This document shows, in pieces, positions 30,943-39,137 of a stretch of 39,864 nt of DNA. A program made the translations under genes and the position numbers. The notes beneath the pieces were generated by a model, which worked only from the letters and a program-made list of their open reading frames with translations, did not search any database and was not told the DNA's origin. Source of the stretch: Alienimonas chondri. Its GTDB lineage: Bacteria; Planctomycetota; Planctomycetia; Planctomycetales; Planctomycetaceae. Each line of letters begins with the position of its first letter. Position 1 is the first letter of the stretch. Location: contig NZ_WTPX01000031.1 of assembly GCF_013036045.1 (NCBI RefSeq), forward strand, positions 1 through 39,864, written 5' to 3'.

Positions 30943-33390
30943 TCACGGATTCGCCCCGGTCGTTCCGGCCGGGGCGCTTTCGTGCGCGTCGGCTTCGAGC
31001 GAGGCGGTCGGCGCCGGCGCCGCGTCACGGGAGACCATGCGGAACGGCACGCTGCGGGCGACCGCCTTCACCAGCGACCGAGCCGTGCCGCCCTCCGCTT
31101 GCACCTCGTCGACGATCCGGTCGATCGTGCAGTCGTCGCCGTCTTCCAGACTGCGGCCCAAGGCGTACCCGAGCATTTTCGCCGTGAGGTGACGCAGCAC
31201 CCGATCCTCCTGCTGCAACAACACCTCGCGGAGTCCGCCCGGTCCCTCGAACGTCTCGCCGGACGGCAGGTTCGCGGAGGCGTCGATCTTCACGCCGCCC
31301 TCCTCGGTGCGCCAACGCCCCATGATGTCGTAGTTGTCGAGCGCGAAGCCGAGCGGGTCCATCAGGTTGTGGCAGGCGGAACAGGCCGGGTCCTCGCGAT
31401 GCCGGGCCAGCTTCCGGCGGACGGTCGTCTTCTCGTTCTGGCCGACCTTCAGTTCCGGCACGTTCGCCGGCGGGGAGGGCACCTTCACGCCGACCAACGT
31501 CTCCAGCACCCAGGCGCCCCGCAGGACCGGGCTGGTGCGATGAGAATAGCTGCTGGCCAGCAGCACGCCGCCCAACCCCAGCACGCCGCCGCGGCGGTCG
31601 CGGTCGGCCTCTTCGAGCTCGAAGCGGCGGAAGGTCGGATCGACTTCCTTCTCGTGCATCCACTTCTGACCGCGATCGCGACTCCCGCCCACGTCGGGCC
31701 GGAGCTTCTCCGGCGGTTCGGCCAAGCCGTAGTGCCAGGAAAGCCGATCGTTCAGAACGACGTAGTCCGCCGCGATGATCTCCCGCAGCGGGCGATCCTC
31801 GCGGAGGAGGTACAGGAACCACTCCCGCGGCTGGGCGTTCAGATCCTCCAGCAGTTCGCTGCTGAAGATCGGCCGGAATCGGTTCGCATCCGGGGCAATC
31901 CGACCGCCCACGTCGCGGGTGCCGAGCCACTGGCCGGCGAAGTGCTCCGCGAAGCTGCTCGCCTTCGGATCTTCCAGCATCCGATCGACCTGTTCGTCCA
32001 GCACGGCGGGGTCGGACAGACGGCCCGCCTCCGCGAGTTCGAACAACCTCTCGTCCGGCATCGAACCCCACAGGAAGTAGCTGAGCCGCGAAGCGAGCGC
32101 GTGATCGTCCACCCAAGTCGGCTCGCCCTCCGCGGACTGGTCCGGGGCAGGGGGTTCGGTGCGGAACAGGAACCGGGGAGAGAGCAGCACGCCGCGGGCG
32201 GCGAGCTTGATCGCTTCCTCCCAGGGATCGCCGCGTTCCGCGGCGCGGTCGTAGAGCGTCATCAGAGCGTCGACTTCCGCCGAGTCGACCGGGCGGCGAA
32301 ACGCCCGCCGGGCGAGTCGGGCGAGAACCGACCGGGCCGCCGGGCGGAGATCCTTCAAACGTTCGCCCGGCGCCACGCCGAGCAGCGCCTCATGGGCGGC
32401 GGCGGTCGCGTCCGACGGGGTCTGCGGGCGTTCGTCCCAAGCCGTCACGCCCTCTATTTGCAGCGGCGTCTCCCCCGGGTTTTGCAGCTCGAGGGAGTGC
32501 ACGCCGCGGCTCAATCGCACGACGGCCCTGGCCCGAGGCGGGACGCCGCCGGCGGTGTCGGGGGGCAACGTGCCGACCTTCACGCCGTCCACCCGCAGCG
32601 CGACCGGGCCGGCGGCGCCTTCGACCAGCTTCACCGTCACGGCGACGTCCGCCTCGACGTACACCGTCACCGGCGCGGTGAGCGTCTCCCCGGGAGCGAC
32701 GGTGCGCGGGCCGGCGGCGGCGGTCTCGGGCAGTAGCTCGGAGGGGACGAACGCTCGTTCGAGCCTCGGCGTCACGATGGCTGCATCTAACACCGCGGAC
32801 GTCGCGGTGAGGTAGCGCTCCAGCAGAATGGGCGAGGAGAACAGCGTCTCCGCGTTGTTGTCGAAGCCTTCTCCGCCGGCGCCGTCGGCGGGAAAGTCCT
32901 GGGCCGGCTTGAGATCCACGAACAGCAGATCGCGAAGCGTGTCGTCGTATTCCTGTCGATTCAGGCGCCGGGCGATGACCGGCCCGGCGTACGGTCCGCG
33001 GTCGCAGGCGGTGTTTCGCAGAAATCCGTCGACCCAGTCGGCGAGCTCGCGGCGCTCGTCTTCGCTCGGTTGGAATAGAGAGTCCGCCGGGGGCATCGTG
33101 CGATTGCGGAGCTGCTCCGCAACGCTCTTCCACAACCCGCGATCCTCGTTGATGCCCTGTTCGCTCGCGGCGGCGAGAAAGTCGACGTGGTTCTTCTCGT
33201 CGTCCGGGTCGTGGCAGTCGCCGCAGTATTCGACCAGCTGGGGGCGGACGAAGTCTCGGTAATGCGTCGCGGACTCCGGCTCCGCGGCGTCGATCGGACC
33301 GGCCGGCGCCGTCATCGGGCACAGGAGCGCCGGGAGCAGAAGCGTCGCAAGCAGACGGAGCGCCGCGGCGGACGACGAAGCGAATCGCAC
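30943..33390 (-). CDS. Secreted planctomycete-type cytochrome protein with DUF1587/1592/1588/1585
   Basis: An 815-aa exported protein starting at ATG 33390 with a signal peptide ending near TAPAGPIDAAEP. Domains in order: a PSCyt-type c-haem domain with CGDCH (56-60) and a distal MPP methionine (M99); DUF1587 with RRLNRQEYDDTLRDLL (near 125-140); a carbohydrate-binding-like beta region (about 230-330); DUF1592 with ALASRLSYFLWGSMPDERL; DUF1588 with SYSHRTSPVLRGAWVLETL; and DUF1585 with a second CSACH motif followed by NLMDPLGFALDNYD. Families with this architecture are abundant in planctomycetes, often paired with DUF1552 genes; no DUF1552 gene is adjacent here. Electron transfer linked to extracytoplasmic polymer degradation has been proposed for them, but no reaction is established. 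Confidence 0.95.
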   Translation of the reverse strand: MRFASSSAAALRLLATLLLPALLCPMTAPAGPIDAAEPESATHYRDFVRPQLVEYCGDCHDPDDEKNHVDFLAAASEQGINEDRGLWKSVAEQLRNRTMPPADSLFQPSEDERRELADWVDGFLRNTACDRGPYAGPVIARRLNRQEYDDTLRDLLFVDLKPAQDFPADGAGGEGFDNNAETLFSSPILLERYLTATSAVLDAAIVTPRLERAFVPSELLPETAAAGPRTVAPGETLTAPVTVYVEADVAVTVKLVEGAAGPVALRVDGVKVGTLPPDTAGGVPPRARAVVRLSRGVHSLELQNPGETPLQIEGVTAWDERPQTPSDATAAAHEALLGVAPGERLKDLRPAARSVLARLARRAFRRPVDSAEVDALMTLYDRAAERGDPWEEAIKLAARGVLLSPRFLFRTEPPAPDQSAEGEPTWVDDHALASRLSYFLWGSMPDERLFELAEAGRLSDPAVLDEQVDRMLEDPKASSFAEHFAGQWLGTRDVGGRIAPDANRFRPIFSSELLEDLNAQPREWFLYLLREDRPLREIIAADYVVLNDRLSWHYGLAEPPEKLRPDVGGSRDRGQKWMHEKEVDPTFRRFELEEADRDRRGGVLGLGGVLLASSYSHRTSPVLRGAWVLETLVGVKVPSPPANVPELKVGQNEKTTVRRKLARHREDPACSACHNLMDPLGFALDNYDIMGRWRTEEGGVKIDASANLPSGETFEGPGGLREVLLQQEDRVLRHLTAKMLGYALGRSLEDGDDCTIDRIVDEVQAEGGTARSLVKAVARSVPFRMVSRDAAPAPTASLEADAHESAPAGTTGANP
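30952..30976 (+). terminator. Hairpin at the meeting point of convergent genes
   Basis: Bases 30952-30962 and 30966-30976 pair as an 11-bp stem with one G-U pair and a three-base loop, followed by cttt. It lies 28 bases after the stop of the secreted protein gene (30923), within the last codons of the cytochrome gene on the other strand. It may terminate plus-strand transcription; being coding sequence for the other gene, it is only a candidate. Confidence 0.4.
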
Positions 33391-33488: not shown

Positions 33489-34184
33489 TCAGTCGAGCTT
33501 CAGATCGCGGACCGCGTGCACGAGGTCCACGACGCTGTCGCAGTCCATCTTCTGAAGGATGCGACCCCGATGGACGTCCGCCGTCTTCGGGCTGATGCCG
33601 AGGTCCGCCGCGATCCGCTTGACCGTTTTCCCTTCGACGAGCAGCGGCATCACCTCTCGTTCACGAGGCGTGAGCTTGTTGTATCGGCGTCGCAAATCGC
33701 GTTCGGCGGCCACGTTCGCGCGGCGCTGTTCGTCCAACGCAAGACAGTGCGCGACGCGACTGCACAGCGTGGCCGGATCGACCGGTTTCACCAGAAAGTC
33801 GACCACTCCGCCCTGAACCGCCTGCACGACCGAAGGCACCTCCGCCTCGCCGGAGATCATCACGACCGGGCGCTCCTCGTGGCGGTCCGCTAACAGCGTC
33901 AGCAGATCAAGCCCGGTGTCCCCGCCCAATTGCAGGTCGAGCACGAGACAGCCGGCGTCCAGCGGTCCGACCGATGCCAGAAAGTGAGCCGCGCCCTCGA
34001 ACGCCTGTACGGAGAAGCCTGCCTTCATCAGGTGATAGGACAACTGAGCACGAGCGTCAGGGTCGTCGTCGACCAGGAAGACGGTGCCGGGAACGCTATG
34101 AGTCACGGCAGATTCGATGGAGCGTGGAGCCTGAGAAGGAGCGGGAGCCTGCGGCGGGGAAGTGAGCAGCTCGGTCGGCGTCAT
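33489..34184 (-). CDS. FixJ-type response regulator, no adjacent histidine kinase
   Basis: A 231-aa two-domain regulator starting at ATG 34184. After a Pro/Ser-rich leader of about 32 residues comes a receiver domain: FLVDDDPDAR (acidic pair D39/D40), phospho-acceptor D83 in LVLDLQL, S111 in MISGEAEV, and K133 in FLVKPVDP. A linker helix (about 150-165) leads to a LuxR/GerE DNA-binding helix-turn-helix: LTPREREVMPLLVEGKTVKRIAADLGIS (171-198) and KTADVHRGRILQKMD (200-214). This is the FixJ/NarL layout, closest to FixJ by the MISGEAEV and KPVDP signatures. It should bind DNA and activate transcription when phosphorylated. No sensor kinase lies in the window, so its signal and targets are unknown. 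The 228 bases upstream (34185-34412) hold its promoter. Confidence 0.95.
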   Translation of the reverse strand: MTPTELLTSPPQAPAPSQAPRSIESAVTHSVPGTVFLVDDDPDARAQLSYHLMKAGFSVQAFEGAAHFLASVGPLDAGCLVLDLQLGGDTGLDLLTLLADRHEERPVVMISGEAEVPSVVQAVQGGVVDFLVKPVDPATLCSRVAHCLALDEQRRANVAAERDLRRRYNKLTPREREVMPLLVEGKTVKRIAADLGISPKTADVHRGRILQKMDCDSVVDLVHAVRDLKLD

Positions 34185-34412: not shown

Positions 34413-36008
34413 TCAAGTCGCCGGAATCGAGCCGTTCGATCCGGCGCTGCGTCGAACCCGGGCGGCGAGGTCGGCCAATAGGGCGTCAGCGGCCTCGGGC
34501 GAGATCTCCTGCGGGTCGGTGCGGAGGTAGAAGTGCAGCCGACGCCCGTAGCTCGCCGCCAGCACCGTCGCCCGGGTGAGCGGCCGGCCGGGCGAGCCGG
34601 TGGCGTACTCCGTGACGGTCAGCGTGCGACTTGGATCGGCGGCGGGGGCGCAAAGCCGGCCTTGATCGTCCCGCAGCGACGGGGGGATCACCCGCTCCAA
34701 ATCGCCGATGTTGGACAGTACCGCCGTCGCATAGCAGGTCTCCCCGAAGATCCGTTTCGGCGCTTGACTGGTGAAGCGGTACGCCAACTGGATCGCCTCC
34801 ACGAACCGCCGCCCGCGTTCGGTTTCCCGCACCCAGGCCATCTCTTTGTGGACCGATTGGAGGAGCGCCTCCGGGTCGTCCGCGAGTTCCGGCGGGCGGG
34901 TGACCAGGGCCATGCCGATCTTGTTGGCGATCGACAGCCCGCCGGGCCTCTGTCCGGCGCCGGCGTCGCCCGGTTTCCGAAGCGAGGCGGGAAGATCGGC
35001 CGGACCGCGGAGGTTCACCGGCACGTTGATCCGCAACGCCGTCGGCCCGTCGTCCGTCGGCACGGCGCTCGAAAGGGACTGGGCGTTGTGGTCCCGGATC
35101 GTGATGAACAGATCGCGGAGGGCGAGGTCGTTCAGCGTCATCCCCCGGGCCTTCGCGGCGGCGCGGAAGTTCGCCGTTTCCTCCTCCGTGAATGCGGCGA
35201 TTCGAGGGGGCGAGACGTCATCGACGGGCGTCGGACACTCCACGTCCCCGCCGGGCTCCGGCTTGGTGGAGACGCGCTTGCCGTCGCCCGCGGGGGCCAG
35301 CGGGACGGTCGCCGTTTTGTTCATCCGCCGGAGCCCGTCCAGCAGATGGCCCCACAGCTTGAGTCGCCCCTTCGGCAAGCCGGGCAGCAATCCCGGTTGA
35401 TCGAAGAACTCGCCGCGATGCAAGATTCGACTGGGGTTCGGAGCCGGCACCAGCGGCGAACCGCCGTTGAGCGAGGAGATCTCTCCGAACAGGTCGATGA
35501 GGAACGACAACCCCCCCAAAGCGTCCGCGACGCAGTGGTGAATCGCCGCCGACAGCCGACTGACGGCGACGCCGTCTTCACCCGGCGCCTCGTCACGCAC
35601 CCAGATCCTCAACCCGATCTCCCGTCGCACATCCAGCCAGTCCCCCTCGGGGTGGGTGCGGCGGACGCCGACCGCGGCGCGATCGACCGTCACCGTGGCC
35701 TGCGGCGGGGCGGGGATCCAGGCGGGGGCCTTGCCGGAGTCGTCGATGATCCGGCGGAGCAGCGGGTGCCGCAGGCGGGTCGCATCCAGCGCCCGCTGCA
35801 ACAGATCGGTCTCCAGCGGGCCGCGCACGACCAACTCGTGCACCCCGGTCATGGGGTGGGACGGACGATCGTCTTCGAGCATATATCGCTCGAGCGTCGA
35901 CAGCGGCAGACGCCGCGGGAGGCCGTCGCCCCCGGGGTCTGCGGGGCGGCTCGCGGCGCCGGGCGCGGTTTCAGGCACCGGCGGGGACGTGGGCGGCCGC
36001 TGGTGCAT
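34413..36008 (-). CDS. Condensation/wax-ester-synthase-fold acyltransferase-like protein
   Basis: A 531-aa protein starting at ATG 36008, with a disordered Pro-rich leader (1-30) and then LPLSTLERYMLEDDRPSHPMTGVHELVVRG, the usual beginning of the CoA-dependent acyltransferase superfamily (WS/DGAT, NRPS condensation domains). Typical segments follow: LLQRALDATRLRHPLLRRII (69-88), AIHHCVADALGG (155-166), FTEEETANFRAAAKARGMTLNDLALRDLF, LRINVPVNLRG and the late LSNIGDL. The catalytic motif HHxxxDG appears as HHCVADA (157-163): both His and the Asp are kept, the final Gly is Ala. It could join an acyl or aminoacyl group to an alcohol or amine; the substrate is unknown. Its start overlaps the end of the upstream gene by 38 bases, so the pair is an operon and probably one pathway. 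Confidence 0.8.
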   Translation of the reverse strand: MHQRPPTSPPVPETAPGAASRPADPGGDGLPRRLPLSTLERYMLEDDRPSHPMTGVHELVVRGPLETDLLQRALDATRLRHPLLRRIIDDSGKAPAWIPAPPQATVTVDRAAVGVRRTHPEGDWLDVRREIGLRIWVRDEAPGEDGVAVSRLSAAIHHCVADALGGLSFLIDLFGEISSLNGGSPLVPAPNPSRILHRGEFFDQPGLLPGLPKGRLKLWGHLLDGLRRMNKTATVPLAPAGDGKRVSTKPEPGGDVECPTPVDDVSPPRIAAFTEEETANFRAAAKARGMTLNDLALRDLFITIRDHNAQSLSSAVPTDDGPTALRINVPVNLRGPADLPASLRKPGDAGAGQRPGGLSIANKIGMALVTRPPELADDPEALLQSVHKEMAWVRETERGRRFVEAIQLAYRFTSQAPKRIFGETCYATAVLSNIGDLERVIPPSLRDDQGRLCAPAADPSRTLTVTEYATGSPGRPLTRATVLAASYGRRLHFYLRTDPQEISPEAADALLADLAARVRRSAGSNGSIPAT

Positions 36009-37173
36009 CGGAAGACGCCGACGGGTTGGGGGGGGCGCCGTCCGGGGTGATTTTCCCGGGGATCGGTTCGGAACCGGCGTAGTCGGTCCACGGCACGGAT
36101 TCGTTCTTGCGGACCGTATCGGTCCCGCGGATCACCACCGGACGCCAGTTCTTCAGGTCGTAGACCCGATTCATCTGAGACGATTTGTGGAACCGCTTGC
36201 CGGGATGGTACACCTGAACGTCGGTCGGTACGACGCGGAAGTTGAACGCCATGCGATTCGCATTGGAGCGATTCGCGTCGGATCCGTGGATCGCCCGTTC
36301 GGTGAAGATCAGCACCTCGCCGGGTTCCATTTCGACGTAATGGACGTCCTCCTCGTGCACGTCGTAGCAGGGGCCGTAGTTGACGGCGTGGAACCCCACG
36401 TCTCCTCCCAGCCGCATCCAGCGAGTTTTCTCGGTGACGCTGCTGGAATCGACCTTCAGGCAGCCGTTCTCTTTCGTGCTGGGATCCGCGGGGATCCAGA
36501 CGGTCAGCATGAATAGATCGTTGATGTCCGGGGGAAAGACGCTCGGTTTCCCGAACTCCTCCTCGAACATGTAGGTGCTCGCCTGGTGCCAGCCGACCGG
36601 ATTGTTGCCGGGCGGTTTGTGAAATAACTGGCTTCGCCAAGTGATGAGGTTCGGCCCCAGCAACTGAGCCAGTCGGTCGGTGATGGCCGGATGGGCGATG
36701 AGCCGCATCATCTCCGGCATTTCAAGATGGCGGTCGCGGTGCGGGTCGCCGCCGGGATAGACCTCGCTCTCGCGGTCGCACCGTTCCAACAGCCGACGAC
36801 CGAAGTCGCGGATCTCCTCCGGCTCGAACGCCTTGAACGGCTGGAGATAGCCGTTGTCGTAAAACGCGGAGAGTTCCTCCGTGGACAGCTTGTTCTCCGG
36901 CGCGACGTCGTCCGCCTTCGAGACCATCGGATTCGGCTTGCGGAGCTGGCAGATCTCGTCGTGCGGCAGCTCCGTCCCGCGACTGGAGATGTACCGCTCC
37001 ATCATCTCCCGGTTCCAGTACTGCCGAATGCCCTTCAGCTTTGTGGTGGGGGTCAGCGCCCGCGGCCAACCGATCTTTTCCGCGGCGAGAATCGAACGCA
37101 TGACGTTCGTGGAAATCGCCTTGTGGGCGGAACCCCCGGGTTGGAGGGTGCGGGGGAGCGACAGGCTCGCCAT
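35971..37173 (-). CDS. SyrB2-like PhyH-fold Fe/2-oxoglutarate enzyme with His-x-Ala: candidate halogenase
   Basis: A 400-aa protein starting at ATG 37173 (MASLSLPRTLQPGG). After an N-terminal extension of about 95 residues, the PhyH-type domain begins LSTEELSAFYDNGYLQPFKAFEPEEI (97-122). It then follows the chlorinating-enzyme pattern of SyrB2: RDRHLE (146-151), LLGPNLITWRSQLFHKPPG (171-189), GWHQASTY (194-201), FGKPSVFPPDIND, LTVWIPADP (223-231), ENGCLKV (235-241), MEPGEVLIF (282-290), AIHGS (294-298) and NRMAFNFRVVPTDVQVY (306-322). The iron ligands would be H196 and H296, with R307 for 2-oxoglutarate. The Asp expected two residues after H196 is Ala198, codon 36582-36580. In SyrB2 the same Asp-to-Ala change opens a site for chloride. 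No carrier-protein gene is in the window. Family membership is well supported; halogenation is inference. Confidence 0.85.
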   Translation of the reverse strand: MASLSLPRTLQPGGSAHKAISTNVMRSILAAEKIGWPRALTPTTKLKGIRQYWNREMMERYISSRGTELPHDEICQLRKPNPMVSKADDVAPENKLSTEELSAFYDNGYLQPFKAFEPEEIRDFGRRLLERCDRESEVYPGGDPHRDRHLEMPEMMRLIAHPAITDRLAQLLGPNLITWRSQLFHKPPGNNPVGWHQASTYMFEEEFGKPSVFPPDINDLFMLTVWIPADPSTKENGCLKVDSSSVTEKTRWMRLGGDVGFHAVNYGPCYDVHEEDVHYVEMEPGEVLIFTERAIHGSDANRSNANRMAFNFRVVPTDVQVYHPGKRFHKSSQMNRVYDLKNWRPVVIRGTDTVRKNESVPWTDYAGSEPIPGKITPDGAPPNPSASSDAPAAAHVPAGA

Positions 37174-37415
37174 GCGCGGGGCGTTGTGATCGAGGGGAGA
37201 ATACGGACGGGGCAGGGAATCGTTTGCCCGATGGTCGATCAGTGTAGGCTCGCAGGGCCGGAAGAGGGGAAGATCGCTTCGTCGCTCGCCGATTCGGGAG
37301 CCGGGCATCTGTCCTGAAGGCTATTCTCGCAGCGCTTCTCCGCGAAGATTTGGGGCGTCGCGGCGAAGTTCCGTCGCAGTTCGCCACTTTTCGTCTCCCC
37401 GCACGAACGTCGATC

Positions 37416-38393: not shown

Positions 38394-39137
38394 TTACTTC
38401 GCCGCGATTGCGTGGGAGAGCGGCCGCAGGATGCTCTCCGTGACGTGTTCGTCCATCAGCCGGTCGCAGTGCTCGCGGAGCGTCACGAGTCGTTCCTCGA
38501 ACGCGACGCCGGCGTCCAGGCTCCCGTATTGCCGGACCGTGAAGTACACGCTGATCTGATCCTCGGGGAACTCGTCCTTCCGCAACTGATAGGCGTTCGT
38601 GCGGGTCTCGACCGCGAGACGGGCCTGCAAGCGGCAATCGTCGTCCAGCACCACGGTGATGCCCGGTTCGTAGTTCAGCACGGAACAACCCGGCATGTCC
38701 GTCAGCGGTTCGACGCCCGCTCCGGCCCCCAACGCCTCGACGACCAAGGCGTCGTGATTGCCGCGGTAGGTGAAGTCGAAGCCGAGCGTGTAGTCCAGCG
38801 CTTCGCAGTCCAGCGGGCTGATCGACAGCATGTAGGGAATCTGCTGGAGCACGAGGGTGTGCTGCTCCATCGCCTCCTCGATGTCCGGCGGGTTGATGTA
38901 GCCGCTGCACACCCGGCGCGGCTCCAGGCTCACCCATCGCTGATGCCCGCGGTCCTTGTCCTCTTCCAGGACGAAGTCGCCGTTGTCGCGGGTGTAGAAG
39001 TTCCGCATCGTGTCGTACTTCTTGCGGATTCGCTCGAAGAACTGCAACGTCGTGTCGCGGCCCTCGGGGAGCCGCATTTCGGTGTTCAGGTTGCAGTTGA
39101 CGTAGAAGTCGTCGGCGATGGAGCTGTAGGCGTCCAT
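38394..39137 (-). CDS. Conserved-looking cytoplasmic protein of unknown function
   Basis: A 247-aa protein starting at ATG 39137 (MDAYSSIADDFYVNCNLNTEM) with no signal peptide or membrane segment. Composition is well balanced and unlike the shadow frames: strands such as FYVNCNLNTEMRLPEG and QISVYFTVRQYG alternate with helices (TTLQFFERIRKKYDTMRNFY, AFEERLVTLREHCDRLMDEHV). The region SLEPRRVCSGYINPPDIEEAMEQHTLVL and the phrase ISPLDCEALDYTLGFDFTYRGNHD look conserved but match no family I know. It lies divergent from ogt (152 bases) and just upstream of the VanZ gene. Confidence 0.82.
   Translation of the reverse strand: MDAYSSIADDFYVNCNLNTEMRLPEGRDTTLQFFERIRKKYDTMRNFYTRDNGDFVLEEDKDRGHQRWVSLEPRRVCSGYINPPDIEEAMEQHTLVLQQIPYMLSISPLDCEALDYTLGFDFTYRGNHDALVVEALGAGAGVEPLTDMPGCSVLNYEPGITVVLDDDCRLQARLAVETRTNAYQLRKDEFPEDQISVYFTVRQYGSLDAGVAFEERLVTLREHCDRLMDEHVTESILRPLSHAIAAK

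Follow-up and report, generated by a model that had tools for sequence, protein, structure and literature searches.

The locus and its features

The window, meaning the whole stretch of DNA that was analysed, comprises 39,864 nucleotides of Alienimonas chondri (contig NZ_WTPX01000031.1). Its minus strand carries a SyrB2-like gene, a candidate for a non-haem iron halogenase, followed by an acyltransferase gene, with the features listed below.

34413..36008, minus strand: acyltransferase of the PapA5 / wax-ester-synthase (condensation-like) type, 531 aa (profiles, PDB match)
35520..35540, minus strand: HHCVADA, the HHxxxD active-site motif of the acyltransferase (sequence; same motif in A. californiensis and at least eight family relatives)
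35971..37173, minus strand: candidate Fe(II)/2-oxoglutarate halogenase, 400 aa, SyrB2-like, PhyH fold family (ORF and profile matches)
36235..36255, minus strand: Arg307 and Arg313, which correspond to SyrB2 Arg248 and Arg254 (alignments)
36286..36300, minus strand: Glu292 to His296, the distal iron-binding His with a Glu four residues ahead, at the position of SyrB2 Ser231 and HctB Glu223 (alignments; PMC6218459)
36508..36579, minus strand: residues 199-222, a loop inserted after HxA that chlorinating enzymes have and HxD relatives lack (alignments)
36580..36588, minus strand: His196-Gln197-Ala198, HxA replacing the HxD iron motif (sequence; invariant in 10 of 10 clade members)
36895..37173, minus strand: N-terminal extension of about 90 residues, not in SyrB2 or CytC3 (alignment, hydropathy)

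According to the ORF list and translation, the halogenase-like ORF opens with an ATG at 37173 and closes with a stop codon at 35971-35973. It sits within a longer open frame whose earliest in-frame ATG is at 37308, and despite this upstream ATG the alignment with homologues begins near 37173. An earlier note on this DNA had proposed that Ala198, in the context GWHQAST, takes the place of the facial-triad Asp of Fe/2-oxoglutarate hydroxylases; ORF and residue are exactly as it had described, with the His196 codon at 36586-36588, the Ala198 codon at 36580-36582 and residues 195-200 reading WHQAST. The SyrB2-like order of motifs that the note described also holds, as LLGPNLITWR, FGKP, TVW, NGCL, NRMAFNFRVVP and VQVY are all present and align with SyrB2 and CytC3. 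By hydropathy, the N-terminal extension has a hydrophobic helix in the copies from Opitutales and Thalassoglobus but not in those from Alienimonas.

Family assignment and phylogeny

Among the profiles searched, the NCBIfam chlorinating enzyme family TIGR01762 was far the best match (140 bits, E 8e-41), followed here by Pfam PhyH PF05721 (E 3e-20). The curated TIGR01762 cut-off of 226 bits was not reached by the A. chondri protein, and in a profile search it was exceeded in none of 392 planctomycete genomes; therefore we file the protein as a sister variant and not as a TIGR01762 member. All six aligned clade members tested matched the profile, with a best E of 3e-51. The closest PDB matches of the single sequence were CytC3 (3e-30) and SyrB2 (1e-25), and when a profile of six family members was compared with solved structures, SyrB2 (2e-41) and CytC3 (1e-39) again came first, with HxD enzymes at 1e-20 or worse.

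Homologues with the HxA motif were found in the sister species A. californiensis (82% identity to the A. chondri protein), in two Opitutales MAGs of the Verrucomicrobiota (52-54%) and in Thalassoglobus (38-40%, for those copies that were compared directly). Ala replaces the iron-binding Asp, within WHQAST, in all ten clade sequences from Alienimonas, Thalassoglobus and the two MAGs. Furthermore, comparison of the gene between the two Alienimonas species (NG86 dN 0.116, dS 0.641; dN/dS about 0.18) demonstrates purifying selection. Since the Ala recurs in ten of ten clade members, from different genomes of two phyla, and the gene is under purifying selection, the change from Asp to Ala is not attributable to chance or sequencing error.

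The gene is rare: it occurs in 8 of 170 Planctomycetaceae genomes, confined to two genera, and in 1 of 388 Verrucomicrobiota genomes sampled, that one being one of the two Opitutales MAGs. It was present in each of the six Thalassoglobus genomes examined, a genus that includes Thalassoglobus polymorphus Mal48 (6,357,355 bp; PMC7716918); the Alienimonas genomes measure 5,295,625 bases (A. chondri LzC2) and 5,475,215 bases (A. californiensis CA12) (PMC10509075). Two scans of viral contigs found no relatives.

In a tree of 52 proteins the HxA clade was supported at 100/99 and was sister, at 97/95, to carrier-linked chlorinating enzymes, including SyrB2, CytC3 and four HxV proteins. To avoid circularity we built a second tree after masking the alignment columns for HxA and for the loop behind it. 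The topology was the same, with the HxA clade at 100/98 and its sister relationship to SyrB2, CytC3 and the HxV proteins at 98/95. In both trees all HxD proteins fell outside the branch uniting the HxA clade and the chlorinating enzymes, and Asp occurred at the motif in no close relative. Two findings that would have spoken against the earlier note, grouping with HxD hydroxylases and Asp in close relatives, were thus both absent. In the masked tree the copies from Alienimonas are nearer to those from Opitutales than to those from Thalassoglobus, a placement suggesting either that the gene crossed between phyla or that it is old and was lost many times.

Several other sequences were recorded during this comparison. 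The four HxV proteins (match regions from Streptomyces, Nostoc, Nonomuraea and Burkholderia; L056, L060, L063 and L066) branch with the chlorinating enzymes and carry WHQV, His-Gln-Val; HxV is a feature that they have in common with HctB. One of them, L056, is annotated as a "chlorinating enzyme" and is adjoined by a carrier and an adenylation gene, in a region of genes for leucine-type biosynthesis. In addition, a planctomycete PhyH protein (L040, G245:C37:31752-32528) has His-Gln-Gly (LYHQGRDWPG) in place of HxD and branches just outside the SyrB2-like group, making it, by its sequence, another halogenase candidate.

What the sequences themselves show is the pattern of residues, the fact that it is conserved across a clade spanning two phyla, and an origin on the branch that also gave rise to the proven chlorinases. 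Accordingly graded, our reading is that 35971-37173 probably encodes a SyrB2-type non-haem Fe(II)/2-oxoglutarate aliphatic halogenase of a clade of its own, to which we assign a probability of roughly 0.75. The position of the HxA clade as sister to SyrB2 and CytC3, away from the HxD proteins, supports the halogenase candidate of the earlier note, with halide binding as a prediction.

Gene neighbourhood and possible product

The acyltransferase gene begins within the 3' end of the halogenase-like gene. The acyltransferase has phthiocerol dimycocerosyl transferase as its best PDB match (E 1e-6), and its scores of 29.7 and 23.6 bits do not reach the curated profile cut-offs of 396 and 310, respectively. 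The two genes are adjacent in both Alienimonas species, overlapping in A. chondri and separated by a 22-base gap in A. californiensis, where the acyltransferase is 65% identical to the A. chondri copy. In A. chondri a FixJ-type response regulator (33489-34184, minus strand) lies downstream of the acyltransferase; A. californiensis has no gene at that place, and a DUF1592-type cytochrome protein directly follows its acyltransferase. The window also contains, at 38394-39137 (minus strand), an ORF for a 247-aa protein that matches nothing in Pfam and nothing significantly in NCBIfam (E 0.17); its GC3 is high, at 0.91, and it is likely a real gene. The halogenase-like gene stands alone in two Thalassoglobus neighbourhoods, and in both Opitutales MAGs it is followed by genes for an MFS transporter, a glycerophosphodiesterase-like protein and a HAD hydrolase (L004:11156-14251; L003:1412-4269).

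Strain A. chondri LzC2 is reported to produce alichondrichlorin, in which 4-hydroxybenzoate and a chlorinated fatty acid are joined as an ester (PMC12078418). A halogenase and an ester-forming acyltransferase would fit both steps, which makes the pair a candidate for its biosynthesis, as judged from co-location and product type. In this proposal the overlapping pair would form the core of the pathway: a carrier-independent (or fatty-acid-ACP-dependent) iron halogenase would chlorinate the fatty acyl chain and the PapA5-like acyltransferase would join the chain to 4-hydroxybenzoate. The chlorine might also come from another enzyme, with the window gene making something else, and to this explanation we give little less than even odds. 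A. chondri also encodes a vanadium-haloperoxidase-like (VCPO-like) protein and a flavin-halogenase-like (FDH-like) protein. The former (597 aa, E 8e-27; frame L089:343-2190, contig 312, near 31831-32391) contains KYYYNYWRP, YPSGHSTFG and SRIYNGSHWPW, and its vanadate-site motifs look intact by eye; a PAP2 search of A. californiensis gave no counterpart. The latter (L093:6023-7498, minus strand, contig 332) has the motifs WxWxI (WFWYI) and FxxPxxSxG (FIDPVYSSG), finds halogenases as its best solved structures (8zop, 2e-54; PltA, 5e-50) and is also present in A. californiensis. A chlorohydrin is the classic product of the addition of electrophilic X+ and water to an alkene, and therefore the VCPO-like or the FDH-like protein could be responsible. 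Against this, the window pair matches both chemical steps, chlorination and esterification, and is kept side by side in both species. Because of the competing enzymes we regard the link between the pair and alichondrichlorin as tentative and rather unlikely, separately from the halogenase assignment, which keeps the probability given above.

The absence of a nearby NRPS or carrier protein, to which the earlier note had drawn attention, was confirmed and extended: no carrier or adenylation gene was found near the HxA gene in the window, in A. californiensis, in two Thalassoglobus genomes or at the two Opitutales loci. PP-binding matches number just 3-4 per genome in the five planctomycete genomes with the gene, nearly all of them in short frames, and in a published antiSMASH survey neither Alienimonas species had an NRPS or type I PKS cluster (PMC10509075). 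For comparison we used plasmid-borne chlorinating enzymes from soil, cyanobacterial and Streptomyces relatives, leaving aside the Pseudomonas plasmids bearing CmaB, which belongs to a plant-toxin pathway, and a Salmonella plasmid match. In all six annotated plasmid loci that were readable, a carrier and/or adenylation gene lies within a few genes of the chlorinating enzyme. The protein could still be an ordinary carrier-dependent chlorinase whose ACP is encoded elsewhere, for example the 85-aa ACP beside a ketosynthase on contig 68 or the fatty-acid ACP, since all characterised relatives compared act on a carrier-bound group and small stand-alone ACPs exist in the A. chondri genome. Set against the six plasmid loci, the lack of any adjoining carrier or adenylation gene in the neighbourhoods read from three lineages weakens this explanation, which we consider a real possibility but a minority one. 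On contig 68 (L092:6251-7817) the ketosynthase-like gene is followed by that ACP and then by a phytoene-desaturase-like FAD enzyme; the ACP is a possible carrier source for the halogenase.

The active site

Alignments showed that the HxA clade keeps, in SyrB2 numbering, H116, A118, T143, W145, H235, S237, R248 and R254, and has Tyr or Phe at the position of F121. Four clade-wide changes, E102 to Gln, T113 to Val or Ile, N123 to Phe or Val and S231 to Glu, affect positions that are uniform or near-uniform among chlorinating enzymes. Three of these residues, Glu102, Asn123 and Ser231, which we take to be part of the second-shell halide network of SyrB2, are therefore not retained in the clade according to the alignment.

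Two glutamates deserve attention with regard to the iron site. Glu204, in the loop, is invariant in the ten clade members and found in the HxA clade only; Glu292, at the Ser231 position, is invariant as well. Either could in principle replace the Asp as a relocated carboxylate ligand in a hydroxylase or oxidase that binds no halide. For Glu292 as a gained substitute ligand the idea was set aside: all eight of the nearest HxD relatives, in which Asp is intact, carry the same Glu, so it was not gained to compensate and is probably ancestral. Moreover, the fatty-acyl halogenase HctB (His111, Val113, Glu223, His227 and Arg245), described as the sole reported halogenase with such a Glu, has it at the same spacing, and in a computational study Glu223 lies beside the halide and is held to favour halogenation (PMC6218459). 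As Glu292 matches the Glu of this acyl-group halogenase in spacing, a Glu at that position is compatible with halogenation. Considering also that the clade is sister to proven chlorinases, a relocated ligand seems improbable. Homologues often become inactive by losing a metal ligand, but an inactive or regulatory HxA paralogue is very improbable here, given that the His and Arg pairs, the Thr and the Trp of the site do not vary within the clade and that dN/dS is low.

Proposed mechanism and significance

If the protein is a SyrB2-type halogenase, His196 and His296 would hold Fe(II), 2-oxoglutarate would chelate the metal, secured by the two conserved Arg, and the position vacated at Ala198 would be taken by a halide. 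Reaction with O2 and 2-oxoglutarate would give a haloferryl species that abstracts a hydrogen atom from an unactivated C-H bond, after which the halogen would rebound to the carbon. In A. chondri the PapA5-like acyltransferase encoded next door might then take over the halogenated product. Halide binding, catalysis and the substrate of the A. chondri protein are inferences. The substrate would most likely be an acyl chain, whether as the free acid or esterified to CoA or to a stand-alone ACP, and not an aminoacyl group from a neighbouring adenylation domain. The adjacent acyltransferase and the chlorinated fatty ester reported for the strain (PMC12078418) provide circumstantial support for a lipid, one of the options raised in the earlier note.

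In a literature search covering papers other than the primary alichondrichlorin paper (PMC11848864), none was found that joins SyrB2, halogenase and Planctomycetes. The clade, its phyla, the absent carrier neighbour and the acyltransferase pairing appear to be new; the enzyme chemistry itself is already known. If our reading holds, SyrB2-type halogenases gain a clade that has no carrier neighbour and, next to the halide site, a Glu like that of HctB. On the rather unlikely proposal that the gene pair makes alichondrichlorin, this clade would have been taken over for lipid-like substrates, away from NRPS/PKS assembly lines, in two PVC phyla. SyrB2-type enzymes are limited by their need for a carrier, and carrier-free members of this branch would thus be attractive biocatalysts. 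Furthermore, a cultured marine strain would then come with a chlorinated product to which no genes have been assigned and with a pair of candidate genes, and the question of how the product is made would become accessible to knockout.

Comparison with known systems

The neighbouring acyltransferase resembles PapA5 and wax-ester synthases in its HHxxxD motif and in its matches to the PapA5 and WS/DGAT profiles, but differs in scores that are weak (E 1e-5 to 1e-7) and far under the family cut-offs. With the HxD PhyH proteins of other planctomycetes (L041-L048) the halogenase-like protein shares the PhyH fold family, WRSxxF and the Glu four residues before the distal His. In contrast to it, these proteins all have Asp, lack the loop insertion and lie outside the halogenase branch; the A. 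chondri protein does not contain their His-x-Asp motif and has HxA instead. The carrier-dependent Fe/2-oxoglutarate chlorinases SyrB2 and CytC3 are alike in HxA, both His, both Arg, Thr143/Trp145, the loop insertion after HxA and the order of motifs. Nevertheless, identity to them is about 28-34% over some 270 aa, and the A. chondri protein has an N-terminal extension of about 90 aa, a shorter central region, the clade substitutions E102Q, T113V/I, N123F/V and S231E, no carrier or adenylation neighbour and a score below the TIGR01762 cut-off. HctB, which was compared through its published residue numbers (PMC6218459), differs in having HxV and three domains. It is similar in the small residue in place of Asp, the Glu four residues before the distal His, the Arg about 17-18 residues after that His and, as proposed here for the A. 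chondri protein, an acyl rather than an aminoacyl substrate.
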